Origin: Chthonomonadales bacterium
GTDB lineage: Bacteria > Armatimonadota > Chthonomonadetes > Chthonomonadales > CAJBBX01
Direction: 5' to 3'
Length of the DNA: 64,000 bases
NCBI GenBank assembly: GCA_027459625.1
Contig: DAIDHP010000017.1
Location: forward strand, 1 to 64,000
The notes under the pieces are model-generated. The model saw only the letters and a list, made by a program, of their open reading frames with translations. It did no database searches and was not told where the DNA came from. Both the position numbers and the translations under genes were made by a program. Positions 1 to 58,708 of this stretch are shown one piece after another; position 1 is the stretch's first letter; every line of letters begins with the position of its first letter.

Positions 1-77
1 GGTGTGAACCGCCCGGTGCGGACCCGCATGCCGGGTGGTGTGGGAGGCGGGATCAGTAATGACCCCGCCTACCCGAT
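1..77 (+). mobile_element. 3' end of a group II intron (domain V/VI-like), partial
   Basis: The first 77 bases look like the catalytic 3' end of a bacterial group II intron. A 9-bp stem (8-16 with 31-39, one G-U pair) encloses an inner TGCG/CGCA stem, as in domain V. A second hairpin follows (GGCGGG with CCCGCC near 46-69), as in domain VI, and then the typical terminal string CTACCCGAT. This kind of sequence normally follows an intron-encoded reverse transcriptase, which would lie outside the window to the left. The 3' boundary near base 77 is judged by resemblance to remembered introns, not by alignment. Confidence 0.55.
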
Positions 78-6960: not shown

Positions 6961-8537
6961 GTCGAAAGATACTTTTTGTAGCGGCGCTGCTAGTCCTTTG
7001 GGCTGCAGCGCTGCTGTTTCGTGTGGTCTCCATAAATAACCGGCCCGTGCACGCCGACGAATCCGTGCATGCGTTGAAATTCAGTCAGCTTTGGCTTAAA
7101 GGCGTTTACAAATACGATCCCAATCAGTTTCATGGTCCCACCATTTACTACGCCGCCCTCCCGATTGTATGGGCTGAGGGTCGGATCAATTTCGCCGACA
7201 CCCATATATCGGATTTCCGCCTCTCCATCGCTCTCTTCGGGGCGGGGATGATTCTGTTGCTCTTTTTCCTTTCCGATGCATTGGGAAAGCCCGCAACTTT
7301 GCTGACCGGCTTATTGCTTGCCATTTCGCCCGCGTTTGTCTTTTACAGCAGGTATTACATTCAGGAAATCGTGCTGGTCTTTTTCACTCTGGCTCTCTTG
7401 GCGTGCATATGGCGTTTTGTCGCTTCGCGCAAGCCCGTTTGGTTTTTGTGGGGGGGATTTTGTGTCGGCATGATGGCGGCGACAAAGGAGACGGTTGTTA
7501 TCAATCTCTTCGCGTTAGCCGTCGCAATATGCACGTTGTATCTGCACTCTCGATATGTCGAAAAAAAGCCTATCGATTGGCGCTCGGGAATAAAGTTATC
7601 TTATCTCATCGGGGCGGTTATCATCGCATTCTTCGTGATGGCGTTTTTCATCACGGGCAATTTCCGAAATCCCGTGGGATTTTGGGATTACTTTCTCGCC
7701 TATATTCCGTGGGTGCATAGGGCCCACGCTTCAGCGCTGCATCTGCATCCTTGGGGCTATTACCTTCATATCCTCGTTTGGTGGCATAATGGAAAGGGAC
7801 CCGTATGGACCGAGTTGCTGACGATCATACTCTCTCTGATTGGTCTGATTATCGCCTTCATCCCTCAATGGAGTGATCGGCTTGATATTCATCCTCGTTT
7901 CATTCGATTTGTGGGTCTCTACACGGTCATATTAACACTTGTCTATTCAACCATACCTTATAAGACTCCATGGTGCCTTCTGAATTTTTTGCTTGGGATG
8001 ATCATTATGGCGGGATATGGCGGCGTTGCGATGGTTCGACTTCTTCCCGGCGCCCCCTTGAAAGTCATTGCGACTCTGCTGATTTTTGGAGGATCGTTGC
8101 AACTTGCAATGCAGTCCTACGCCACCAGTTTTAAATATGAAGCCGACACACGCAACCCATATGTTTACGCGCAAACCGATCCCGATTTCCTGAGGTTTGT
8201 GAAACGGTTCCGCGCGATAACCGCAGCCTATCCGTACGGAAATCAGACCTTGGTGAAGGTTATATGGAAGGATAACTACTACTGGCCTATCCCATGGTAT
8301 TTGCGAGCCTATAAGAACGTGGGCTACTGGGGAGGCGTCATTCCGCCCGATCCTTCCGCGCCCATTGTTATCTCCTCGTATGATCTGGATGATGTCATGA
8401 CGGCGAAGATAAGCAACACCCATCTCATGACCGGACTGTACGCCATACGTCCCGGTGTCTATTTGGAGTTGTGGGTAAGGATGGATGTGTGGAAGGACTA
8501 TCTGAAAACCTTAAAACCCGGGGATGATGGGAATTGA
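6957..8537 (+). CDS. Agl23-type (TIGR03663-like) polytopic membrane glycosyltransferase-fold protein
   Basis: A 526-residue protein with about ten hydrophobic segments. Its first periplasmic loop reads RPVHADESVHALKF, followed by YKYDPNQFHGPTIYY, a pairing I associate with the TIGR03663 'flippase activity-associated protein Agl23' family, related to GT39/PMT mannosyltransferases. The Asp-Glu of HADES would be the lipid-sugar active site in that superfamily. The C-terminal soluble part contains WPIPWYLRAYKNVGYWGG. The ATG overlaps the previous stop (ATGA). A role in transferring or flipping lipid-linked sugars is inferred from the family, not shown here. Confidence 0.8.
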   Translation: MSRKILFVAALLVLWAAALLFRVVSINNRPVHADESVHALKFSQLWLKGVYKYDPNQFHGPTIYYAALPIVWAEGRINFADTHISDFRLSIALFGAGMILLLFFLSDALGKPATLLTGLLLAISPAFVFYSRYYIQEIVLVFFTLALLACIWRFVASRKPVWFLWGGFCVGMMAATKETVVINLFALAVAICTLYLHSRYVEKKPIDWRSGIKLSYLIGAVIIAFFVMAFFITGNFRNPVGFWDYFLAYIPWVHRAHASALHLHPWGYYLHILVWWHNGKGPVWTELLTIILSLIGLIIAFIPQWSDRLDIHPRFIRFVGLYTVILTLVYSTIPYKTPWCLLNFLLGMIIMAGYGGVAMVRLLPGAPLKVIATLLIFGGSLQLAMQSYATSFKYEADTRNPYVYAQTDPDFLRFVKRFRAITAAYPYGNQTLVKVIWKDNYYWPIPWYLRAYKNVGYWGGVIPPDPSAPIVISSYDLDDVMTAKISNTHLMTGLYAIRPGVYLELWVRMDVWKDYLKTLKPGDDGN

Positions 8538-8568
8538 GGAAGGAGAGCTTCAAGCGCTCTCCTTCCTC
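8536..8568. terminator. 13-bp hairpin terminator between convergent genes
   Basis: A perfect 13-bp inverted repeat (8536-8548 with 8556-8568, 7-base loop) starts inside the stop codon of the Agl23-like gene and ends just before the stop of the esterase gene. It lacks a long T tract in either direction, so it may be a Rho-assisted or structural terminator serving both strands. Confidence 0.6.
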
Positions 8569-10391: not shown

Positions 10392-11018
10392 ATGGGTTCC
10401 GCAAGGCTTTTCGTGGAGGCGTTCATCTCCCTCATCGCCATACTCAATCCGATCAGCGCGGCGCCGATCTTTCTTGGATTGACGCAGGGTCAGACTGTTC
10501 GCGAACGAGCGCAGATCGCGCGCACCACCGCCATAGCGGCGACGGTGATACTGCTCATCGCCGCGATTGCAGGTAAATGGATACTGTTTTTCTTCGGGAT
10601 CAGCCTCCCAAGTTTCCGCGTGGCGGGAGGGATACTGATCGTCTTAATAGGGCTTGATATGTTGAACGCCCGGCCGAGCAGGAGCAGAGAAACGCCCGAG
10701 GAGACTGCGGAAGCTCAAAGTCGCAAGGAGATCGCCGTGGTTCCGATGGCGTGCCCGCAATTGGCTGGGCCCGGCTCCATCAGCTTCGTTATCATGTTCA
10801 CTGGGAAGGGGGGCGGGATGATGGATATGGTGGTATTGATAGGTATCATTCTTCTTGCCGGAGTTGCCTCCTATCTAACGCTCTTATTGGCTTCCCCTCT
10901 TGGAAACGCCTTGGGGCGAACCGGAATGAATATCATGACCCGTATTATGGGGCTGTTACTGGTGGCTGTGGCGGTGGAGTTTGTCATAACGGGCGTGAAG
11001 GCGATGTGGATAGGTTGA
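10392..11018 (+). CDS. MarC family integral membrane protein
   Basis: A 208-residue protein with six hydrophobic segments. The first helix carries the family's NPISAAPIFLGLTQG loop, and the second half has CPQLAGPGSISFVI, the related repeat expected for MarC/UPF0056 proteins, whose function is still unclear (the old link with antibiotic resistance is disputed). The frame is open back to a TTG at 10254, but the MarC homology starts at this ATG. GGAGG is only two bases away, so a slightly different start is possible. There is no obvious partner in the neighbourhood. Confidence 0.82.
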   Translation: MGSARLFVEAFISLIAILNPISAAPIFLGLTQGQTVRERAQIARTTAIAATVILLIAAIAGKWILFFFGISLPSFRVAGGILIVLIGLDMLNARPSRSRETPEETAEAQSRKEIAVVPMACPQLAGPGSISFVIMFTGKGGGMMDMVVLIGIILLAGVASYLTLLLASPLGNALGRTGMNIMTRIMGLLLVAVAVEFVITGVKAMWIG

Positions 11019-11034
11019 AATCTTGGCGTCTCAA

Positions 11035-11322
11035 TTATTTTTGGAAAAAAGCGTATGTCCCATGGTAGGCATCCTCAAGGCCGGGAATGCCGTTTTTTTT
11101 CGCCAATTCAACGTACTTTTGAGAACCCGGAATCAGCCCGTACCTCCATTCGCATATCCCACATAAAGTGTCGGATAAAACCAAATACCAACCCCTCTGA
11201 CGACTTTCAATGATAAATATCCCTATCCCATCCTTCCAATTAGGTTTTTTTGTTGGTGTTCGCCATTCAGTTTCAAATACGGCCATGGCATGAGTGGTGT
11301 GATCTCGCCTTTCCTTAACCAT
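11035..11322 (-). CDS. Small protein of unknown function, coupled to the gene upstream
   Basis: A 95-residue soluble protein, rich in Trp and Gly in its middle (GWYLVLSDTLCGICEWRYG). I do not recognise it. Its ATG lies inside the end of the gene at 11315-11704 (8-base overlap), so it is either translationally coupled or the second half of a single gene split by a frameshift. It contains two cysteines three apart (CGIC), not enough to argue metal binding. Confidence 0.5.
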   Translation of the reverse strand: MVKERRDHTTHAMAVFETEWRTPTKKPNWKDGIGIFIIESRQRGWYLVLSDTLCGICEWRYGLIPGSQKYVELAKKNGIPGLEDAYHGTYAFFQK

Positions 11323-11704
11323 TTTCGCCCATTGCTCGCTCCATAGAGTGTTTATTTAGCAAAGCGGTGACTTTGTACGGGGTGAGATGCAGCATGGATA
11401 TCTCTTTTGGATCGGCTAATCGACAGAGCTCGTTTGCATCCCTTCGCTCCAATGCGCTTATCGCCAAATTTTTTACGCCGTTCGGGGAGAGCGGACCAAA
11501 GAGTTGATAGCCAATCCAGTCTAATAAGAGGAGAATAATTGCAGTTAAAAAAGTGAACCTGACCCACTCTTTTTTTGTTTTAGGAAATCGGATATATATT
11601 GTCGTCCTTGTTCGTTTCCCGCTATCCGATAGTTCATGCGGAATTCTCATAACAATGGGTTTTCTTTTTCCGGAAAACAAAGCTCGCCATATGGTCCGGA
11701 TCAT
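11315..11704 (-). CDS. Single-pass membrane protein of unknown function
   Basis: A 129-residue protein with a basic N-terminus and one membrane helix (FTFLTAIILLLLDWIGYQLFG) around residues 55-75, then a short helical domain (AISALERRDANELCRLADPKE) resembling the start of a SnoaL/NTF2-like fold seen after membrane anchors. The start was placed at the ATG preceded by AGGAGAGGGGG. It precedes, overlaps and probably works with the gene at 11035-11322. A fused single protein of about 220 residues would result from a one-base frameshift near 11320. Confidence 0.5.
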   Translation of the reverse strand: MIRTIWRALFSGKRKPIVMRIPHELSDSGKRTRTTIYIRFPKTKKEWVRFTFLTAIILLLLDWIGYQLFGPLSPNGVKNLAISALERRDANELCRLADPKEISMLHLTPYKVTALLNKHSMERAMGENG

Positions 11705-11745
11705 TTTCCCCCTCTCCTGTAAAACCTCTTGGTGGAAATGCAATA

Positions 11746-12387
11746 TCACCAATCATCCGAAACTCTATCGGATACGGGCACCAGTTTTGAAACCACTTGG
11801 CCATTGAGACGCAAAAATATAACCCTTTTTAAATCCCATTTTGGCTCATTCCACATATCCCATTCATTATTGTGATTCACATCGGTGACAATTACAAAAT
11901 TGTCGCCCCTTTTAGCCACCACATTTCTTACTTGAGCGTAGGAAGGTATATTAGGGTCCATCTCATCGAAAAATCCCGGCCATCCATAATTACTCCCGGC
12001 TGTGGGATCCGGCGGCGCATTGGGACAAAAAAGGAGCCTTTTGTCCTTTACATATGAGTTTAGAAATACTGTAAATCCGCTAATATTCGCGGGCAGACCC
12101 AATTGAGCGTCTCCCATCGCGATCCCAACGGAGGGATCCATGCCGTTATAATCCTGACGATAGATTGATGCGGCCAATCCGATCTGGTGAAGATGCGAAA
12201 CGCATATCATCTGCCTCGCTCTCTCCCTCGCGGGGCCAAGCGCCGCCCAAATAATGCCCGCAAGAACAATGATAATCGCGATGACCACGAGGAGTTCCAC
12301 TAATGTGAAAGCACTTCTTGCTATTATATTATTCCCTTCAAGAGACGTAAGACTTAATCCTTTCAAGTCAAATAATTTGACTCGCAT
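11746..12387 (-). CDS. Prepilin-like (DUF1559-type) protein
   Basis: A 213-residue protein with a type IV prepilin/pseudopilin methylation motif, SA|FTLVELLVVIAIIIVLAG, about 28 residues in, and the following GPARERARQMICVSHLHQIG. That pattern is typical of the DUF1559/H-X9-DG family, abundant in Planctomycetota and Armatimonadota. The residue before the cut is Ala rather than Gly. The C-terminal part (VNHNNEWDMWNEP...LRLNGQVV) resembles the family's end but is degenerate. No clear ribosome-binding site precedes the ATG. It lies just downstream of the AT-rich block and is on the same strand, so it may share its transcript. Confidence 0.75.
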   Translation of the reverse strand: MRVKLFDLKGLSLTSLEGNNIIARSAFTLVELLVVIAIIIVLAGIIWAALGPARERARQMICVSHLHQIGLAASIYRQDYNGMDPSVGIAMGDAQLGLPANISGFTVFLNSYVKDKRLLFCPNAPPDPTAGSNYGWPGFFDEMDPNIPSYAQVRNVVAKRGDNFVIVTDVNHNNEWDMWNEPKWDLKRVIFLRLNGQVVSKLVPVSDRVSDDW

Positions 12388-12528
12388 AATTTGATAGATT
12401 ATGAATTTTTAGAGGTGTTTGATTTATGAAATATATATATTAAATCATTATGAATTATTCCTTTATAGATCGTTTTATCAAATTCTCGATGTAGTTGTAA
12501 ATAGTAATACACATAAAAGAGATTTAGT

Positions 12529-14147
12529 CTATTTGGTCATCATTCTATATAATGAGATTTTAATATTGAGCTCATTGATACGTTTCATTCCAGCGGATTT
12601 AATTAAAGATTGTAAGCCGAGCTTATGATTAGAATTACGTTTTAATAAAATGATATTGGGAGTAATTCTAACAATTCCATATAGTGGATTCTTCAAAATA
12701 TTATACACTATACAAAAGTATTTATTATTATCTCCCGTGGAGAACTCAGAATTCTTAGGAATTAATAAAATATAATCTACTTTTGAGAACATAATAGCAC
12801 TATCTAATTCCACGGAATTACAAGGGGGACTATATAATCCGGCTTCCTCCTTTAAGGCGATTATGGTTCCGCCCCAGCAAAAACTGTAGAAAGGATTAGG
12901 GAATGTATAAATTCGTAGACGATGGGCAATATGCGGAACAAACTCCCGTTGGGCGGATACGGAAGCGTATGGCGGGATAAGTTTTATTACAGAATTCGCA
13001 TCAGCAACCTGAATATTGTCAAAGGGCTGCACCAAATGTTTGGATGACATTAATGGACCAGTAGTGAAATAAATTGAAGCGGCAACGAGTAACTCTAATG
13101 CGAGAAAACATGCAGCAATATTATTGCTCCAATCTTTAATACGTCTGAAGGCAACTATTGCTGATATAAATACAAAAGGAGTTATAAAAACCGTGTAATG
13201 GAACATAATATCATGCATTTGGACTCTAGAACTTAAAAGACACTCTAGTATATTTGGAATAGTGATTAACAATATTTCAGGGGCGAGAAAGGATATAAAT
13301 AACACGGGGCTAAATAATTGAAAAATAAAAACGATATTATCAGAAGTTAATAAATCATGTAGGATTCGAAACGGATGAAACATAATATACCTGAAAATGA
13401 GTAAGGGCGATCCGCCATATTGAGAATATAAAAAATAATAAGGGGAAGGAATCCCATTATTATAATATTTCATGATGGATAATGCGACAGTAGTTATAAT
13501 AAGTCCAAAAGAGATTGTTATACAACCGGATTTATATTTGCGTATGATAAAAAGATAAATTCCTATGGAGATGATAACAATCCCCGCAGTTTCCTTAGTT
13601 AATGCGAAAATAGTAAGAGAGATGAAATACCAACGTGTGTTATTTTTTTTTATAAAGTAGTATGATAGTAGTATAAATAAAGTTCCGAGAGTTTCGGGAT
13701 GATAATCAAACGTATTTGTCCATTCCAAAGCAGGATAAAGAAGGTAACACACAGAAAACAAAACAGCAATCCATTGGGACTTAATCTCATTTTTCGCAAT
13801 GAGATACACTGGCAAGGCACCCATTCCAAGTACTATTGACTGGAAGACAAGAAGAGCTTTAGGATCATCCCATATCCAATATAATGGTGCAATCAGGTAA
13901 AGTATAGGACTGAAATGGTCAGCGAATATGTTTAAGCCTCTCACCGTATCAAAGGGAAGGTGTCCATGGCTAATGAGCCAAACTGATTGGTCAAAAATTC
14001 CAAGATCAAACGCGGTCAACGCGAAATGATTATAAAGAAAAAAAGAATGGTTTATAAATAAAATGATATACAATAATATCGATAAATATAATAAGAATAA
14101 AAAAAATATGTTTTTATAATATAATATGCAAATTTTATCTTATTCAT
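12529..14147 (-). CDS. DUF2079 polytopic membrane protein, apparent frameshift near its start
   Basis: The uninterrupted frame runs from about 14139 to 12529, with its first usual start a TTG at 14073. It holds the DUF2079 signature: ALTAFDLGIFDQSVW, ADHFSPILYLIAPLYW and VYLIAKNE, followed by about ten membrane helices. The family is GT-C-like, of unknown substrate. A better start is the ATG at 14147, which overlaps the stop of the DUF1573-like gene and reads MNKIKFAYYIIKTYFF. It is one frame off, and a single extra base in the 8-base A run at 14099-14106 (T run on the coding strand) would join the two. So this is either a sequencing or assembly indel, a phase-variable switch, or a decayed start. 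Confidence 0.7.
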
Positions 14148-15154
14148 TGATCCCGAATATGTTGAGGATTAAATGTTTTTCTGATTCACAATTGGTTGAA
14201 ATTGCGATCTTGGAATTTATTTCCCCAATTTTATTAAATATATTTATGTCCAGAATCAACAAATACTGCGAGGGATCGTTAGGCAATACTTTGTATTCAA
14301 TATTATTATCACATGCAATTTTATTTATTTTAAAATGATAATTATATGGGGAATATACAATAATATGTTTTGTAATAGAAGGCATATCGCATTTGATTAT
14401 TCCTAGTGAAATTGAATTTGGTTTTAATTCAACAGCTCGATATATATATCCATTAACCATCATATCCATTTCATGTTTGTATCGATCGTTAGATAATATC
14501 TTAATATAATCAGTGAACTCACCATGATTATATGAAGAATTTGGCCTTATATTTAGTTTGATATCGCCTCCATTTATCTTTTCAGAGGTGATATTGAGAA
14601 TATGCTTGTTATAAATTATTTTTTTTAATTAAAATATTCCGAAACTTTGGATTATGATATATGATTATATTCTCCTGTATAATATTACTACATAGCATCG
14701 CGGGAAAATATAGATATTTTGGACATTGGACTATGACATTTGCGAATAATAAAATGGTAATTGGTTTATTATAGCCTTCTATCCATAGTGATAATATAAT
14801 TTTCTGCCTTCCTTCTTTTCCTATGCTATTATAATGAATATTGATATTATGATAGGAATATGCCTTTAACAGGAATTGCTCCGTTGAGACAGTGGTACAT
14901 CCGCATGATGGTTTATACCGTATAATATGTAGAGGTTCAGAACCTGAATTATATATTATTGCAGAGTAATCGATACTTTTTGGACTTAAGATTGAACCCA
15001 TAAACGGTGAGGACACAAGATGGATAGGGGGATCAATATCTTTAAATTTATAATCAATAATATGTACCATGAAAAATACGTCAATAATAATAAACACAAT
15101 CAATAATGATGCAATAATATATTTTATAGATTTATGTTTCTTGCATACTTTCAT
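14140..15154 (-). CDS. DUF1573-like exported protein split by a frameshift
   Basis: Two frames join here. The first (15154 to about 14620) encodes a membrane anchor (YIIASLLIVFIIIDVFFMV) and a DUF1573-type Ig-like domain with NSGSEPLHIIRYKPSCGCTTV, including the diagnostic SCGCT. It ends at a TAA just after an 8-base A run (14619-14626, T on the plus strand). Removing one A continues without a stop into the second frame, which ends at 14140 and has a second Ig-like repeat (VELKPNSISLGIIKC). The joined product would be about 337 residues. The ATG at 15154 has AAGGA 11 bases upstream; a TTG at 15214 is the alternative. Function is unknown; DUF1573 proteins are periplasmic or surface-exposed. 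Confidence 0.65.
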
Positions 15155-15245
15155 TAAATATAAAATCCTTTTTTTAAAATTAATAAAATTATTCGATAAT
15201 AGCCTATTTCTCAATATTTCATATCAATTAAATTAAAGCACTTTA

Positions 15246-16103
15246 TCATGGCAAAAACAATTTCAAATCACTGCTATCGGTTCCAGATACTAATTCGAGG
15301 GGTAACCAATTCTTTTCTTTCTCGCTCCACCACATTCTCAGTATATATGGTCCACTCGTATTGTTTTCTCTACCTTGTAAGTATAGGTGAATTTCAGCAA
15401 CTGAAATCGATTTATCAATATTATAATTATCTAAAAAATTATCCTGATAAATAAATAACCCGTGTTCCACTCCAAGTTTGCTCACATTTGTTAGGTTATG
15501 TGGATTGTTTATAGGGAAATATGGTTTGCTTAATTTATTGTATTTTACATAAGTAACTGAACTGGCGGGAATGCATATTCCTTTCAACTCTGGTCCAGAC
15601 GCTAGTCGATGAATCACCGCTTTGACAACATTATATGAAGATGAATCTTGTGGAGATAATCCTAATTGGGCCGCATCTTGGTTCAATTCCGCAGTATCAA
15701 TCACGCATCTCACTGGCTTAAATGATTTTACAATTTCCAAATATTTATCAGGCATATCCTTGCTCGACCACATCTCAATAATGTTATATAATGAAAATTT
15801 AAGTTTGGCATCCTGGTCAGGTGTAATAATGGTACTGAAAACGGTTCGCATGTTAGCCATTCGAATCTTGAAACCGGGTGTATCCTTTATTGATTCATAG
15901 GGGAGTGATTTCCATAAAATTACCGCATCCGCATGTGGAATATTTTGCACCATCGAACTAACCGAATGACCCTCGTTGATTTGATTCAATAAATATATTG
16001 AGTACAAATAATGTTGATAAATCATTCGACTAATAAAGGCTACTGGAATCGCAATTAGAATAAAAAAAATAACCCACACGCGGATACGTTTCATTTTCGT
16101 CAC
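15246..16103 (-). CDS. Membrane-anchored protein of unknown function
   Basis: A 285-residue protein with one N-terminal membrane segment (VWVIFFILIAIPVAFISRMIY) and a large domain expected outside the membrane. Nothing is recognised. Features include an aromatic C-terminus (LRMWWSEKEKNWLPLEL) and a mid-region with FKPVRCVIDTAEL. The start is GTG at 16103 or ATG at 16094, neither with a strong ribosome-binding site. It lies between the Cys-rich peptide gene and the DUF1573-like gene on the same strand, with AT-rich codons like its neighbours, so it is likely part of that operon. Confidence 0.55.
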   Translation of the reverse strand: MTKMKRIRVWVIFFILIAIPVAFISRMIYQHYLYSIYLLNQINEGHSVSSMVQNIPHADAVILWKSLPYESIKDTPGFKIRMANMRTVFSTIITPDQDAKLKFSLYNIIEMWSSKDMPDKYLEIVKSFKPVRCVIDTAELNQDAAQLGLSPQDSSSYNVVKAVIHRLASGPELKGICIPASSVTYVKYNKLSKPYFPINNPHNLTNVSKLGVEHGLFIYQDNFLDNYNIDKSISVAEIHLYLQGRENNTSGPYILRMWWSEKEKNWLPLELVSGTDSSDLKLFLP

Positions 16104-16142
16104 TTTAATATATTTGCCGTATCTTAAGCAATATTAATCGCT

Positions 16143-16388
16143 TTACATCCAACCATTACAATTACATGACCCCCAACCTAAAAGATTATTGCATTTAGGT
16201 TGACTTCCTGGAGAACAGCATGTTACATCGCTTTGAATTGTACCACAGCATATACAGCATATGCCTGAAGGACATCCCACAAGCTCCCCACATCCACTGC
16301 ACGCTGCAAAAGCATTTTTGGGATTTGGTAGAAATATCACCGTCAAAAGAACCACGAAATACATGACGCTAAAGAATACGTTTTTCAT
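16143..16388 (-). CDS. Small secreted cysteine-rich protein
   Basis: An 81-residue protein: a signal peptide (MKNVFFSVMYFVVLLTVIFL, cleavage near NAFA-ACS) and a mature part of about 53 residues with 12 cysteines in C-x2-C, CC-x-CC, CC and C-x-C patterns. The ATG was chosen because AAAGGA lies 8 bases upstream and the signal peptide starts there; the frame stays open further upstream without a good site. Such density suggests disulfides or metal binding. It heads the AT-rich operon with the unknown protein, the DUF1573-like (SCGCT) and the DUF2079 genes. No family is recognised; a peptide toxin, a metal-binding protein or a surface-structure component are all open. Confidence 0.6.
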   Translation of the reverse strand: MKNVFFSVMYFVVLLTVIFLPNPKNAFAACSGCGELVGCPSGICCICCGTIQSDVTCCSPGSQPKCNNLLGWGSCNCNGWM

Positions 16389-16733
16389 CGAAAATATCCT
16401 TTCCACATAATAAAGATTGTTTGCGGCATATCCTTGTGCCAAAATTGCAAATGGGAGAACATACGAGAGGCACAGACATATTAAACCAATAGTCTCTGAC
16501 CACAAGATCGCTTACAACATTTGCCACCCTGAGCTTATGTAAATAAACCCCGGGTTATTCGTGACCTCTATTCGAATCACTACTTATCCTGTGAAGTTTC
16601 CGATTGCGCTTCGTCACACATGTGTCATCCTCCTTTGAAGACGGGTCGTGTCCCCCTAACTCGCCCGGTTTTCCGTTACCAATATTATATAGTCCCATCT
16701 CCGTCCAAAAACTCACGGGTGATTTTCAGGAGC

Positions 16734-18280: not shown

Positions 18281-18320
18281 TCGCTCACAGTGTACGCATA
18301 GGAACGTACACTGTGAGCGA
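18281..18320. terminator. 16-bp perfect hairpin between convergent genes
   Basis: Positions 18281-18296 and 18305-18320 are perfect inverted repeats of 16 bp with an 8-base loop, located 12 bases after the mscL stop and 7 bases from the stop of the convergent gene. A short AAAA follows on the plus side and no T tract on either. It most likely terminates both transcripts. Confidence 0.7.
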
Positions 18321-43239: not shown

Positions 43240-44034
43240 TCAGGAAATAGGCAGCGTATCTCCGATTTCCCGCTTTATGTCATCAGCCGTGAGCAATCGA
43301 AACTTACTCTCCCGATTTGTATGTCTATCCAATAACCCTATTTCCAATTGCATGGTTTTCAGCGCGGTGTCAAGAAATACGTTTTCCTCAGATTCATGGA
43401 CTTCGGTGGAAACTTGCTTCTCGTCCGCAACAAGTGATTTACGCTTGGAGGAACTCTCCAACGCCCCAGCGGCCCAAGTGGTTAATGCGGTTCTAATGGC
43501 ATGGTTCAATGTGCATTCGGTTGAATAATCGGAAAGGGTTTCCAGCATTTTATCTTCAGCCTCCCATGTTCCCGCAACAACGGCGTAGCCGGAGCGCTGA
43601 GAAAACTCCCCGTCGTAATTCAATATAAGAAAGAGATCGCGATTCGGAGTTTCCCCCATCTCGCCGAAAATGGCGCGGATCACTGCCGGTGCGTTCAACG
43701 TATCGCCAAACAGTTTTTTCAAAGGCGGACTGAGAGAGAAACCCACGAGTCTATGGGCGGTGATATCGTCCGGGCTGCGTTCGTATCCCTCACGATGCGC
43801 CACGTCAATGGCGCCAATTCTTATGGATTCAATATCCGATTGATTCCCAATGGCTGAGTAGATAAGACGATCATATATTTCAAATATTTTACGTTGAGAT
43901 TTTCGAAGTGTGAGCAAAAGAAGACCATCGTTAAAGCTCAGACCCACCACCGGGCTGCCTTCGTTGAGTTTATCTTCCACGTAATCTTTTCTATGACTGA
44001 CCGCTTCGTTAAAATCAAACGGACTATATACCAT
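43240..44034 (-). CDS. prcA: 20S proteasome alpha subunit
   Basis: A 264-residue alpha-type subunit: the N-terminal gate and H0 region YSPFDFNEAVSHRKDYVEDKL, then SPVVGLSFNDGLLLLTL and IFEIYDRLIYSAIGNQSDI, as in bacterial PrcA (YDRIAFAAVGKYNEF-like). The N-terminal Thr is absent, as expected for the non-catalytic outer ring. The C-terminus is charged and helical (TADDIKREIG). It lies 38 bases downstream of prcB. In the chamber the alpha ring gates substrate entry and docks the ATPase, whose gene is not in this window. Confidence 0.85.
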   Translation of the reverse strand: MVYSPFDFNEAVSHRKDYVEDKLNEGSPVVGLSFNDGLLLLTLRKSQRKIFEIYDRLIYSAIGNQSDIESIRIGAIDVAHREGYERSPDDITAHRLVGFSLSPPLKKLFGDTLNAPAVIRAIFGEMGETPNRDLFLILNYDGEFSQRSGYAVVAGTWEAEDKMLETLSDYSTECTLNHAIRTALTTWAAGALESSSKRKSLVADEKQVSTEVHESEENVFLDTALKTMQLEIGLLDRHTNRESKFRLLTADDIKREIGDTLPIS

Positions 44035-44072: not shown

Positions 44073-44861
44073 TTACGCATCAAGGGAGTTGATATCTTGT
44101 GTGATGTTTCGGAGGATTTCCTCTGGAATATCGGCAATGCCATCCGCATCGATTTTTTTCGCCAAGGGCAATCTTTTCGCCCATCCACCAGTGGCGGCGT
44201 CCAAGTCCGCGGCGATATCCAGCATAATCAGCGCCTCGCGCAGCGCCTCCTCCAAACTCATCTCATGAAACGGCTTTTTTGTCTTCACTATATAATCGAA
44301 AACACCTCGTATTTGAACCGACCCGCTTCCAGCCGCACCGAATTCCGTGCTTTCGAACCTTGCGCCCATACCGTCGTAAAAGAATATCCTGCCGGTATGC
44401 ATAGCCACGTCATATGAACTCAGAATAGGGATGAACCCCCCGATTCCCTGAAGCGCGGAGGGCAATCCTGCTGCAATAACCCGGGAGAGTTCCGAGAGTT
44501 TGCCTTCAAGGCTCATGGGTTGCAATTGAGAGCGCTCGAAGTATTTAAAGGAGTGACGAAGGTATTTCACCACATCCATCGCTCGCCCGTATGATCCGGA
44601 TATCGCAAGGAGGGTGTAATCATCTATTGGGAGCGATTTTTCCGCCCTGTCGTACATGACAGCGAAATTGGCGGTAGCCCGTCGATCGCCCACGTTTATC
44701 ACCCCTTCGCGGTACTTAACTGCAATTACAGTGGTGCCGTGAATGTCGGTAATGGGGGATGCTCCCGAGGGAATTGCGTATTCCTTGCCTAGCCATTCAG
44801 GGGGAGTGATAACAACTTCGCTTAACGGGCGTATCATCTCCAACAGGTTCGAATTGCCCAT
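44073..44861 (-). CDS. prcB: 20S proteasome beta subunit (catalytic)
   Basis: A 262-residue N-terminal nucleophile protease precursor. A 42-residue propeptide ends HG and is followed by TTVIAVKYREGV, so processing would expose Thr1. From there Asp17 (in VGDRR), Lys33 (AEK) and the GSGS motif near 136-139 are at the expected places, and AADLDAATGG matches the Asp/Thr-rich end of bacterial PrcB. The ATG at 44861 has GGGGAG 5 bases ahead. A GTG at 44867 overlapping the UBact stop (GTGA) would add two residues. All catalytic residues are present, so it should be active. Confidence 0.93.
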   Translation of the reverse strand: MGNSNLLEMIRPLSEVVITPPEWLGKEYAIPSGASPITDIHGTTVIAVKYREGVINVGDRRATANFAVMYDRAEKSLPIDDYTLLAISGSYGRAMDVVKYLRHSFKYFERSQLQPMSLEGKLSELSRVIAAGLPSALQGIGGFIPILSSYDVAMHTGRIFFYDGMGARFESTEFGAAGSGSVQIRGVFDYIVKTKKPFHEMSLEEALREALIMLDIAADLDAATGGWAKRLPLAKKIDADGIADIPEEILRNITQDINSLDA

Positions 44862-44863
44862 TA

Positions 44864-45049
44864 TCACTCCCCACTTCTTTGGCGATATCTTCGAGCGGTG
44901 TCCGGATCAATACGCTTCATACGTTTCAACAGGTCACCAACATCCGGACGCTTGACGTCTGGCTTGGTTGGACCGCCGTCGTCCCCTTCCTTCCTCATCG
45001 GTTCGGCGGGCATGGGGCGACGCACTCTCTCTTCAAATTGAAATTCCAT
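44864..45049 (-). CDS. ubact: UBact, Pup-like ubiquitin-type protein tag
   Basis: A 61-residue polar, probably disordered protein, immediately upstream of and overlapping prcB. Its second half (TKPDVKRPDVGDLLKRMK, then DPDTARRYRQRSGE) matches what I recall of UBact, the Pup-like tag described from genomes of Nitrospirota, Armatimonadota and others. It ends in Gly-Glu, the form that PafA-type ligases can join to a substrate lysine through the terminal Glu side chain, so no Dop-like deamidation is needed. The start ATG has GAAGGAGGG 5-6 bases ahead, but that site lies in a hairpin (45055-45092). Ligase (PafA-like), depupylase and the ATPase are not encoded nearby. Confidence 0.88.
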   Translation of the reverse strand: MEFQFEERVRRPMPAEPMRKEGDDGGPTKPDVKRPDVGDLLKRMKRIDPDTARRYRQRSGE

Positions 45050-45054
45050 TTTAT

Positions 45055-45092
45055 TCCCTCCTTCCTCTCTATAGTATACGAGGAAGGAGGGA
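45055..45092 (-). promoter_or_regulatory. Hairpin that buries the UBact ribosome-binding site
   Basis: Positions 45055-45067 and 45080-45092 form a perfect 13-bp inverted repeat with a 12-base loop. On the minus-strand transcript the downstream arm reads GAGGAAGGAGGGA and is the Shine-Dalgarno sequence of UBact, 5 bases from its ATG. It could repress translation until opened, act as a partial terminator after the isomerase gene, or mark an RNA-processing site. No T tract follows. Confidence 0.55.
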
Positions 45093-45118
45093 TTCTGATT
45101 TCCTTAGAGTGAAAATCC

Positions 45119-46216
45119 TTAGGCTTTTAACTTTTTCATTTCGGATTTTAACTTGGAGATGCTGTCTATGTTGGTGGGATCTATGTCGTTAAGAAATGCC
45201 GCGTAGATGCTCACATAGTCGCCGAGGTAGAATAGGCTGAACATTTTCGCCAAAAGCGAGTCTCCCTTCGCCCACGCCTCGTACGATGGGGTGTGTCCCG
45301 CAAGCTTTTTCATTACTTCCACGCGTCGTGCAATCCTCGGCTGGGTGGCGGTTTCCGAAGGGTCGCGGAGGTAGATCAGTATCCATCTGGGAGCCTGTTT
45401 GCGACATTTCTTCCAAGCCAGAATTTCATTGTGATTCTGTTCGGGAAATACATTTGCAAAGGCATGTTCCTTGGCGTTTTCGTTAAACTGGCACTTCCAA
45501 CGAACAGCCACCACACCTCTATATCCCTGACTGCCGTATATCACGGGTATGCGTCCGTCAAGCTGAATCGCCAACTGTTTCGCAGTATTGTTTTCAATCG
45601 GAACATCCGTGGAGTACTCCTTGTTCAGATCGGCGAGCAATTGCATGGTTTCTTCAATGTCCTTGCTGATGGGGCGGGAAAACAACCCGAGGTGAGACAG
45701 CAATGAAAGCATGGGGAAGAACATATATCCCGTAGCAGTACGAGGGGGTTGTCCGCCGGGAATGGTACAGACCGGAAACCCATCCCTGTTCGCTCGTTCC
45801 GCCAACTCCCCTCCGCTGGTCACGCAGACGATTTGGGCGTTGCGTGCGCGCGCCTGGTTGTAGGCTGAGAGCGTCTCTTCCGTGCCCCCTGAATAGGAAG
45901 CGCAAATTACCAGGGTGTCCTTGCCTGCGAACCCAGGAAGAGTGTAGTCACGATTGACAATCATCGGGATGTCGCCATATTCCTCCATCAAGATTCGAAG
46001 CATATCCCCGCCAATCGCCGAACCTCCCAAGCCGGAGAGCACGATGTTGTTGATGGGGCGTTTTCTCGAAAGTCCTTGGATGGCGAATTTTTCACCGATC
46101 TCATAAGCTGTGCGGCATTGTATGGGGAAATCAGCGGTAAGTTGAAGGATATTGGACGGGTCTAGTTGACGCATTGCGGCAATATCATCCAAAACCGATT
46201 TTGATTGCAGCATCAT
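45119..46216 (-). CDS. Bifunctional phosphoglucose/phosphomannose isomerase-like protein
   Basis: A 365-residue two-SIS-domain isomerase of the PGI/PMI family first known from Crenarchaeota, interconverting glucose 6-, fructose 6- and mannose 6-phosphates. Motifs: IVLSGLGGSAIGGDMLR in the first SIS domain, CASYSGGTEETLSAYNQA with the SGGTEET loop that binds phosphate, and QNHNEILAWKK with the base Glu. ATG at 46216 is preceded by AAAAGGAG; an adjacent ATG at 46213 has slightly better spacing. It lies between rpsR and UBact on the same strand. Confidence 0.9.
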   Translation of the reverse strand: MMLQSKSVLDDIAAMRQLDPSNILQLTADFPIQCRTAYEIGEKFAIQGLSRKRPINNIVLSGLGGSAIGGDMLRILMEEYGDIPMIVNRDYTLPGFAGKDTLVICASYSGGTEETLSAYNQARARNAQIVCVTSGGELAERANRDGFPVCTIPGGQPPRTATGYMFFPMLSLLSHLGLFSRPISKDIEETMQLLADLNKEYSTDVPIENNTAKQLAIQLDGRIPVIYGSQGYRGVVAVRWKCQFNENAKEHAFANVFPEQNHNEILAWKKCRKQAPRWILIYLRDPSETATQPRIARRVEVMKKLAGHTPSYEAWAKGDSLLAKMFSLFYLGDYVSIYAAFLNDIDPTNIDSISKLKSEMKKLKA

Positions 46217-46315
46217 AAATCTCCTTTTAGGATGTTGGATTCGCAATAACGGCCCAATGGCTAAGCGTTGAAGGCAACTAGCATCGGGCCGGGTTTTGCA
46301 GCGGATAATTTGTTA

Positions 46316-46567
46316 TTATTTAGCCACGAAATTCAAAAATGCAATGTGGCGCGCACGTTTGATCGCTTCGCTCAACAGACGTTGATGTTTTGCGCATGTT
46401 CCCGATGAGCGTCTCGGATACATTTTGCCCCGTTCGCTCACGAATTTACGAAGCTTTGCATATGACTTGTAATCTATGCTCGTGACTTTATCCACGCAAA
46501 ACTCACAAACCTTTCGGCGCGGTTTGCGAAATTTGTTTGGAGCGCGTTTGCGCACGACGTTATTCAT
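46316..46567 (-). CDS. rpsR: 30S ribosomal protein S18
   Basis: An 83-residue S18 that pairs with S6 on the small-subunit platform. [21 protein letters not shown] and [17 protein letters not shown] are conserved, and the Cys residues (CEFC, then TCAKH) make this a zinc-binding (C+) form. It closes the rpsF-ssb-rpsR cluster; rplI, often next, is absent. AAAGGG lies 5 bases before the ATG. Confidence 0.97.
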
Positions 46568-46631: not shown

Positions 46632-47069
46632 CTATTCCTCTGCGAAGGGATCATAATCCTCGGGTTCCGAAGTTTTAGAAGATTGCGGAATGTTTTCCCG
46701 GACAGGGGCGACGTGGTCCATTTCAGCAGCATCCGTTCCCTGGGATTTCGGTCGATCCAATCCTTGAACGTTATCGGCTATGATTTCCGAGGTTTTACGC
46801 TTGGAACCGTCTTGCGCGTCCCATGTGCGAACTTGCAAACGCCCTTCCACGAGAATCAACCGTCCTTTGGTGATGTAACTGTTTATGAATTCCGCAGTTT
46901 GTCTCCATGCCACCACATCAAGGAAATCCGTCTCCCGCTCGCCCGTATCCTGATTTTTTCGCGGGCGATCAACCGCAACCGAAAAACGGACAAAGGGGAT
47001 TCCACTTGAGGTGTATTTTATTTCCGGGTCACGGGTAATTCTCCCGATGATAATAATGTGGTTTAACAT
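46632..47069 (-). CDS. ssb: Single-stranded DNA-binding protein
   Basis: A 145-residue SSB: OB-fold with NHIIIIGRITRDPEIKYTSSG, FVRFSVAVDRP and LILVEGRLQVRTW, then a short acidic tail ending EDYDPFAEE. The usual C-terminal tip ends in Phe (DDDIPF); here FAEE follows the last Phe, so the protein-interaction tip differs slightly. It sits between rpsF and rpsR, the common bacterial order. GAAGGAG lies 7 bases before the ATG. Confidence 0.95.
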   Translation of the reverse strand: MLNHIIIIGRITRDPEIKYTSSGIPFVRFSVAVDRPRKNQDTGERETDFLDVVAWRQTAEFINSYITKGRLILVEGRLQVRTWDAQDGSKRKTSEIIADNVQGLDRPKSQGTDAAEMDHVAPVRENIPQSSKTSEPEDYDPFAEE

Positions 47070-47129: not shown

Positions 47130-47432
47130 TTACTCTTCGTCTTCGTTTTGGCGCACGATAATATGTCTGAAGACATCGTCGCTGATTCGAAATACGCGAT
47201 CAAGCTCCTTGGGTACGTTGGTGTCTGCAACGAAATTCATCAGGATGTAAATGCCTTCACGATGACCGTCAATTTCGTAAGCAAGTCGCTTTTTGCCCAT
47301 TTCCCATTTACCGGCATCCGTTACGGAGCCGTTCATGTCAGTAACGATCTTGGAATACTTGTCAATGATGGGCTGGAGTTGTTCGTCCGTTAGTTCCGAA
47401 TCCACAATGTACATCGCCTCGTAGTGGCGCAT
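47130..47432 (-). CDS. rpsF: 30S ribosomal protein S6
   Basis: A 100-residue S6: MRHYEAMYIVDSELTDEQL, WEMGKKRLAYEIDGHREGIY and a C-terminus FRHIIVRQNEDEE. It binds S18 and the central domain of 16S rRNA. GGAGGTG lies 8 bases before the ATG. The first gene of rpsF-ssb-rpsR, expressed from the extended -10 promoter upstream through a hairpin-rich leader. Confidence 0.97.
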   Translation of the reverse strand: MRHYEAMYIVDSELTDEQLQPIIDKYSKIVTDMNGSVTDAGKWEMGKKRLAYEIDGHREGIYILMNFVADTNVPKELDRVFRISDDVFRHIIVRQNEDEE

Positions 47433-47553: not shown

Positions 47554-47559
47554 ATTATA
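47554..47559 (-). promoter_or_regulatory. Extended -10 promoter of the rpsF operon
   Basis: On the minus strand TGG-TATAAT forms an extended -10 box about 120 bases before rpsF. No good -35 box is visible, as is usual for this promoter type. Confidence 0.5.
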
Positions 47560-58672: not shown

Positions 58673-58708
58673 AAAGAGTTCCTGATCTTGATTTCAGGAA
58701 CTCTTTTT
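58673..58708. terminator. Rho-independent bidirectional terminator
   Basis: A perfect 13-bp stem (58673-58685 with 58694-58706, 8-base loop) starting with AAA and ending in TTT plus TT. It serves the small plus-strand gene and also the minus-strand accD-accA operon that ends here. Confidence 0.85.

Follow-up and report, generated by a model that had tools for sequence, protein, structure and literature searches.

Fold-back hairpins that sequester a ribosome-binding site (RBS) are the closest described counterparts of the element reported here. For example, longer transcripts of phage T4 gene e fold shut, resulting in an approximately 100-fold silencing, while the shorter late transcripts are translated (PMC3014915). 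Fold-back hairpins also occur in T4 soc, 49 and I-TevI, and a further hairpin is present in mobE of phage Aeh1 (PMC3014915). In another group of mRNAs, including E. coli adhE and lambda cIII, the RBS is occluded and the message is activated by RNase III (PMC5371410). Finally, RNA thermometers such as the ROSE-like and fourU elements depend on mismatches and marginal stability, with values of -4.1 to -7.6 kcal/mol for the ROSE-like hairpins of Pseudomonas (PMC3669281). No paper on the control of UBact expression was found among the open-licence papers searched. Here, we describe a perfect hairpin in the genome of a Chthonomonadales bacterium whose 3' arm contains the Shine-Dalgarno (SD) sequence of UBact, a chromosomal gene for a proteasome tag, and we weigh its possible roles.

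Gene context of UBact

In the 64-kb window (the whole stretch of DNA that was analyzed), rpsF, ssb, rpsR, pgi, UBact, prcB and prcA lie in this order and in one direction on the minus strand, so that a longer transcript could reach UBact from the genes upstream of it. The operon head consists of rpsF (47130-47432), ssb (46632-47069) and rpsR (46316-46567), assigned by TIGR00166, TIGR00621 and TIGR00165, respectively, and is followed by a gene for a bifunctional phosphoglucose/phosphomannose isomerase (pgi/pmi, here pgi; 45119..46216; NF006426, PF10432). The pgi stop (45119) is 69 nt upstream of the UBact ATG (45049). The rpsR-pgi spacer (window 46217-46315, minus strand) holds a strong hairpin of its own (CGGCCCGATGC...CCATTGGGCCG), which is followed by TTATT and is kept in the sister species.

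UBact itself (61 aa; 44864..45049) matches PF20513 with 78.5 bits relative to a cut-off of 27.8, also exceeds the cut-off of NF033388, and is the only intact copy found in its genome. Its start assignment is sound, since the start codons of relatives align with ATG 45049. Next comes a gene for a prcB-like proteasome subunit beta (44073..44867; PF00227, with TIGR03690 below its cut-off), for which the candidate starts are GTG 44867 and ATG 44861. The coupling of prcB to UBact proposed in the initial annotation is plausible, because the UBact stop overlaps this possible GTG start. The last gene, for a prcA-like subunit alpha (43240..44034), matches TIGR03691 below its cut-off (E 7.6e-22). Two Pup-ligase-family genes (Dop/PafA-like, PF03136) are found in the same genome, both on other contigs. 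Together, the UBact profiles, the prcB and prcA matches and the two PF03136 genes indicate that a UBact system is present.

An inverted repeat containing the UBact SD sequence

The initial annotation had described a perfect 13-bp inverted repeat between the isomerase gene and UBact, with the SD of UBact as its downstream arm, and both points were confirmed. On the minus strand, the 69-nt pgi-UBact spacer presents, in order, TCCCTCCTTCCTC (5' arm or anti-SD, 45080..45092), GTATACTATAGA (12-nt loop, 45068..45079), GAGGAAGGAGGGA (3' arm, 45055..45067), ATAAA and the ATG at 45049, with the two arms complementary at 13/13 positions. The SD, AAGGAGG (45063-45057), falls entirely within the 3' arm and 7 nt 5' of the ATG; as an SD, this arm is optimal in both sequence and spacing. 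The loop holds a -10-like hexamer, TATACT (45078-45073). Upstream of the main stem and after the pgi stop, a small hairpin, GATTTTC/GGAAATC (45097..45117), is predicted by folding only, and because it is identical in the sister species, it carries no covariation information.

Predicted stability and rarity

Opening the UBact SD is predicted to cost 19.8 kcal/mol, the highest value in the own-genome sample (473 kb, taken in stretches, which served as the null for both opening costs and repeats). For the 231 other genes of this genome that have an SD of at least five matches, the median is 2.6 and the maximum 10.0 kcal/mol. The leaders of other UBact genes reach at most 7.9 kcal/mol, in a comparison that leaves out the minus-strand loci of some relatives. 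When longer context is added (as much as 250 nt on the 5' side and 140 nt on the 3' side), the cost for UBact stays at 15-19.5 kcal/mol. The earlier claim that the stem hides the UBact SD is thus upheld by the folding predictions, which give near-complete sequestration. Selected or not, such a stable stem on an SD would block translation of any transcript containing it.

Hairpins as such are not rare in this genome; it is the SD as an arm that is exceptional. Five perfect repeats of at least 12 bp are present in the real window, relative to none in a first-order Markov null of 3 x 64 kb, which produced a single perfect 11-bp repeat. The 473 kb contained 25 perfect repeats of at least 11 bp, mainly intergenic and mainly at gene ends. 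The pattern CCTCCTT-N3..33-AAGGAGG-N3..10-ATG has one match in the 4.55-Mb genome and one in the sister species, at the same locus; among 10 other relatives, three have one unrelated match each and the rest have none.

Perfect gene-end hairpins of 13-16 bp were also seen at window positions 8536-8568, 18281-18320 and 58673-58706, and at 12836-12865 of a further stretch of the same contig (L091). They lie mainly between convergent genes, several have poor T-tracts on either side, and a perfect hairpin appears to be the usual gene-end signal in this genome. Also beyond the window, a perfect 13-bp hairpin (L091, 13430-13463) occurs immediately 5' of an hslV-like protease gene, the likely SD of which (GGGGG) is just outside the stem.

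Operon order among relatives

The order rpsF-ssb-rpsR-pgi is common to eight relatives, in one of which rpsF is outside the locus, and is an old operon in the order Chthonomonadales. In the relatives checked, no UBact stands behind it and other genes follow. UBact was present in 59 of the 101 genomes searched, and in most relatives it is found behind a dop-like gene, usually close. Named UBact matches, including one in a Fimbriimonadia MAG, point to Armatimonadota, and a further contig search returned the same sister locus plus distant loci. Only this genus, among those sampled, has UBact-prcB-prcA behind rpsF-ssb-rpsR-pgi, and the hairpin is located at the exact junction between this growth-linked operon and UBact-prcBA.

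UBact apparently has no dop before it in G002, G003 and G006, which are three further genera of the family, and no such stem is present in them. Because these genera lack the stem as well as dop, the hairpin seems to go together with the new neighbour and not with the loss of dop, in a sample of one genus. At the UBact locus of G002 (L057), which is likewise not behind dop, a 9-bp perfect hairpin, GGCGAAATA-TGAGTGTAG-TATTTCGCC, ends a short way 5' of the UBact SD and does not include it.

Conservation in the sister species

The conservation comparison covers one other species of the genus (G001; contig JAJZOL010000038.1). Its UBact protein is 97% identical, and differences affect 22% of four-fold sites and about 19% of third codon positions; the spacer differs at 4 of 69 nt. 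The spacer is conserved above the level of synonymous sites (P ~3e-4), but its conservation is ordinary relative to the other spacers of the genome (mean divergence 10%, P = 0.16). All four changes are in or beside the stem, while the loop is the same at 12/12 positions and the 24 nt upstream carry no change. A C to T change in the 5' arm turns a C-G pair into U-G, and the 3' arm loses one pair, at its loop end, through a G to A change. Outside the stem, A to T and A to C changes create a U-A and a G-C pair, and the sister stem, with 12 perfect pairs plus 3 more, reaches three pairs further out than that of the window. The sister SD is still sequestered, with a predicted opening cost of 14.7 kcal/mol.

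The initial annotation had named conservation of the repeat, and compensatory base changes within it, as the checks on a functional hairpin. The first gave a divided answer, in that the sister species retains the hairpin and every other relative examined lacks a comparable SD stem; as to the second, there is no two-sided compensatory change between the window and the sister species. When four random changes were simulated outside the SD, a cost of at least 14.7 kcal/mol was retained in 52% of cases, as compared to 12% when changes were introduced at the third-position rate. Given these figures, persistence of the hairpin in the sister species is weak evidence for selection, and may be taken as consistent with function, not as proof.

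Relative to the sister species, dN/dS is approximately 0.06 for UBact (dN 0.018, dS 0.29), 0.06 for prcB and 0.16 for prcA, values indicating that all three are under purifying selection and, therefore, that they are used despite the hairpin. Since this is the only intact UBact found in the genome, a translatable form of its mRNA must exist.

Elsewhere in the window, a 1.3-kb stretch with a pilin-like gene and its neighbour (11000-12290) is only about 1% divergent from the sister species, with flanks at about 10% or more, and adjoins a 4.3-kb block (12300-16690) that is missing from the sister contig. This arrangement suggests recent recombination or transfer.

Searches for promoters, terminators and RNA families

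No sigma70-type site passed the scan of the minus strand from rpsF to prcA. The best score in the UBact spacer, 3.8 bits, is exceeded in 83% of 252 upstream regions and in 77% of shuffled regions, and the TATACT of the loop has no recognisable -35 and no extended -10. A candidate operon promoter (ATTACA-19-TATAAT, with its -10-like TATAAT at 47554..47559, minus strand) lies upstream of rpsF; it is a consensus match only, and its score of 10.1 is near the 95th percentile of upstream regions. Textbook TTGACA-17-TATAAT sites are found elsewhere in relatives. Searches with the loop motif and with the ECF-like pattern GGAAAT-N16..18-CGTATA returned few matches, mainly intragenic or unrelated, and revealed no regulon. 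Likewise, the conserved block upstream of the hairpin has no second copy in the genome.

The initial annotation had allowed that the repeat might be simply a terminator. The RNA 3' of the stem is AAUAAAAUGG, without a U-tract, and the terminator scan of the window did not detect the pgi-UBact hairpin, which is thus no canonical intrinsic terminator. Near the locus, no Rfam family, thermometers and riboswitches included, reached its gathering score, and sub-threshold matches were of the chance kind only. Taken as a whole, the sequence searches at the locus and in the genome identified neither an alternative promoter nor a cleavage site nor an antisense RNA. Two further results of these searches concern other sequences: an Rfam group II intron match (45 bits; gathering score 40) is present at the window edge (7-77, plus strand), and a match to GGATCACCTCCTT in the genome, considered as the 16S end, was rejected as not being one.

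A candidate translational insulator and its alternatives

Our preferred reading, to which we give an even chance, is that the hairpin is an RBS-sequestering translational insulator between the pgi operon and UBact; read-through transcription, low translation and an insulating purpose are what we infer. Because the cluster sits behind rpsF-ssb-rpsR-pgi, polymerases from that operon would probably continue into UBact-prcB-prcA. On the resulting mRNA, the 5' arm would be made first and would capture the UBact SD upon its emergence, so that no 30S subunit could bind and prcB, if coupled to UBact, would also be kept low. Ribosomes terminating at the pgi stop would remain about 26 nt from the stem and should not melt it. 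The full-length mRNA is thus probably silent for UBact, and the translatable form would be one that is made without the 5' arm, has lost it or has it occupied. Possible routes to such RNA include an mRNA that starts in the loop or 3' arm, an RNase cut in the stem or loop, and a bound antisense RNA. Insulation from read-through would be a more economical purpose than the stress switch suggested by the initial annotation, given that, in this genus, UBact-prcBA follows an rpsF-ssb-rpsR-pgi operon that is otherwise conserved. Several points speak against the insulator. Perfect 12-16 bp hairpins are frequent at the gene ends of this genome, so the element may have originated as one of them, at the 3' end of pgi. 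It was seen in two species only. In addition, the hairpin of the rpsR-pgi spacer could already reduce read-through into pgi and UBact.

One specific completion of the insulator reading is a system of two transcripts like that of T4 gene e, in which UBact-prcBA would be locked on transcripts of the ribosomal-protein operon and a start or processing event inside the hairpin would give the only translatable form; we consider it rather doubtful. In its promoter version, the TATACT of the loop would serve as a -10 with a start at approximately 45066, about 7 nt further on and on the first bases of the 3' arm. The mRNA made from it would have a short leader and no 5' arm, and longer transcripts would be the silenced ones. 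The sister species has the same loop and upstream block, and T4 gene e provides a solid precedent (PMC3014915). This version is also held to be doubtful, because a -35 is missing and the alternative-sigma motif searches showed no regulon; moreover, the loop has no extended -10, its score is below those of most upstream and even shuffled regions, and relatives have textbook sites elsewhere. A different and unlikely possibility is a regulated switch on the full-length transcript, with the stem opened when tagging is needed, be it by a trans-acting RNA or protein, as the initial annotation had proposed, or by a metabolite, and with participation of either the conserved loop or a purine stretch in the UBact reading frame (GAGGAAGGAAGG; 44985..44996, minus strand). 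The purine stretch is 92% complementary to the 5' arm and appears as its partner in the forced-open fold, in possible competition with the SD; the confinement of all four sister changes to the stem and its edges would suit a switch, as would the constraint on the genes, by which the stem must be bypassed somehow. The local hairpin, however, is favoured over the competing pairing by 15-19.5 kcal/mol (at least 11 in the sister species), no Rfam family reached its gathering score, the upstream block has no relative elsewhere in the genome, and a candidate ligand, protein or antisense RNA is not known.

The remaining readings are less probable still. It is improbable that the element is a gene-end hairpin of pgi, either a Rho-independent-like terminator or a 3'-end stabiliser, whose 3' arm happens to overlap the downstream SD. 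Such a role would agree with the position of the stem, some 26 nt downstream of the pgi stop, and with the perfect 11-16 bp hairpins of the 473 kb, which are mostly at gene ends and in several cases have poor T-tracts; it agrees poorly with the lack of a U-tract in AAUAAAAUGG, the negative terminator scan, the optimal SD at optimal spacing, and the lack of any visible housekeeping promoter downstream to serve UBact. Similarly improbable is a fortuitous hairpin or a DNA palindrome (e.g., a protein-binding site) with no translational role. Its occurrence in two species only, the lack of two-sided compensatory change, and a persistence expected in about half of the four-change simulations would all fit chance, but the element is extreme among the 231 genes and unique in its genome. 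By far the least probable is an RNA thermometer melting upon heat shock, even though an SD sequestered before a proteolysis gene recalls heat-shock thermometers. The predicted open fraction of the stem is approximately 1e-14 at 37 C and 3e-6 at 80 C (5e-11 and 5e-5 in the sister species), so heat alone would not open it. Switching by melting, as the initial annotation had envisaged, is thus disfavoured, since in neither species does the predicted open fraction reach 1e-4, even at 80 C, and a thermometer was rejected on this predicted stability, which is far from the marginal stability of the known ones.

If the hairpin works as read here, a mutable element separates production of a degradation tag from the growth-linked operon that carries UBact, and a gene cluster with changed neighbours would carry an RNA insulator at the junction. 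Under the insulator reading, one would expect either a shorter form of the UBact mRNA or a site at which it is processed. Were the double-transcript version true, one 38-nt element, acquired with the new gene order, would uncouple proteasomal tagging from growth-linked transcription. UBact tagging has been little studied, and the hairpin gives it a control point that lends itself to sharp tests.

Comparison with known systems

The likeness to T4 gene e lies in an SD that is predicted to be locked in a hairpin on transcripts entering from upstream and in a translation that would need RNA without the 5' arm. The differences are that UBact is a chromosomal proteasome-tag gene, that neither a late-type nor a housekeeping promoter was identified within the element, and that the stem is of very high stability. 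RNase III-activated mRNAs share with UBact an RBS occluded by structure until the partner strand is removed, which is a candidate route here, although classical RNase III substrates have stems longer than 13 bp. Like RNA thermometers, the element is a hairpin that sequesters the SD of a gene for protein quality control; unlike them, its stem is perfect, is predicted to stay closed to 80 C, and belongs to no described thermometer family in Rfam. With Rho-independent terminators, it has in common a G+C-rich perfect hairpin shortly after the upstream gene, but it has no U-tract and one of its arms is an SD. By the features tested, then, the element would resemble the RBS-sequestering fold-back hairpins, and neither an RNA thermometer nor an intrinsic terminator.
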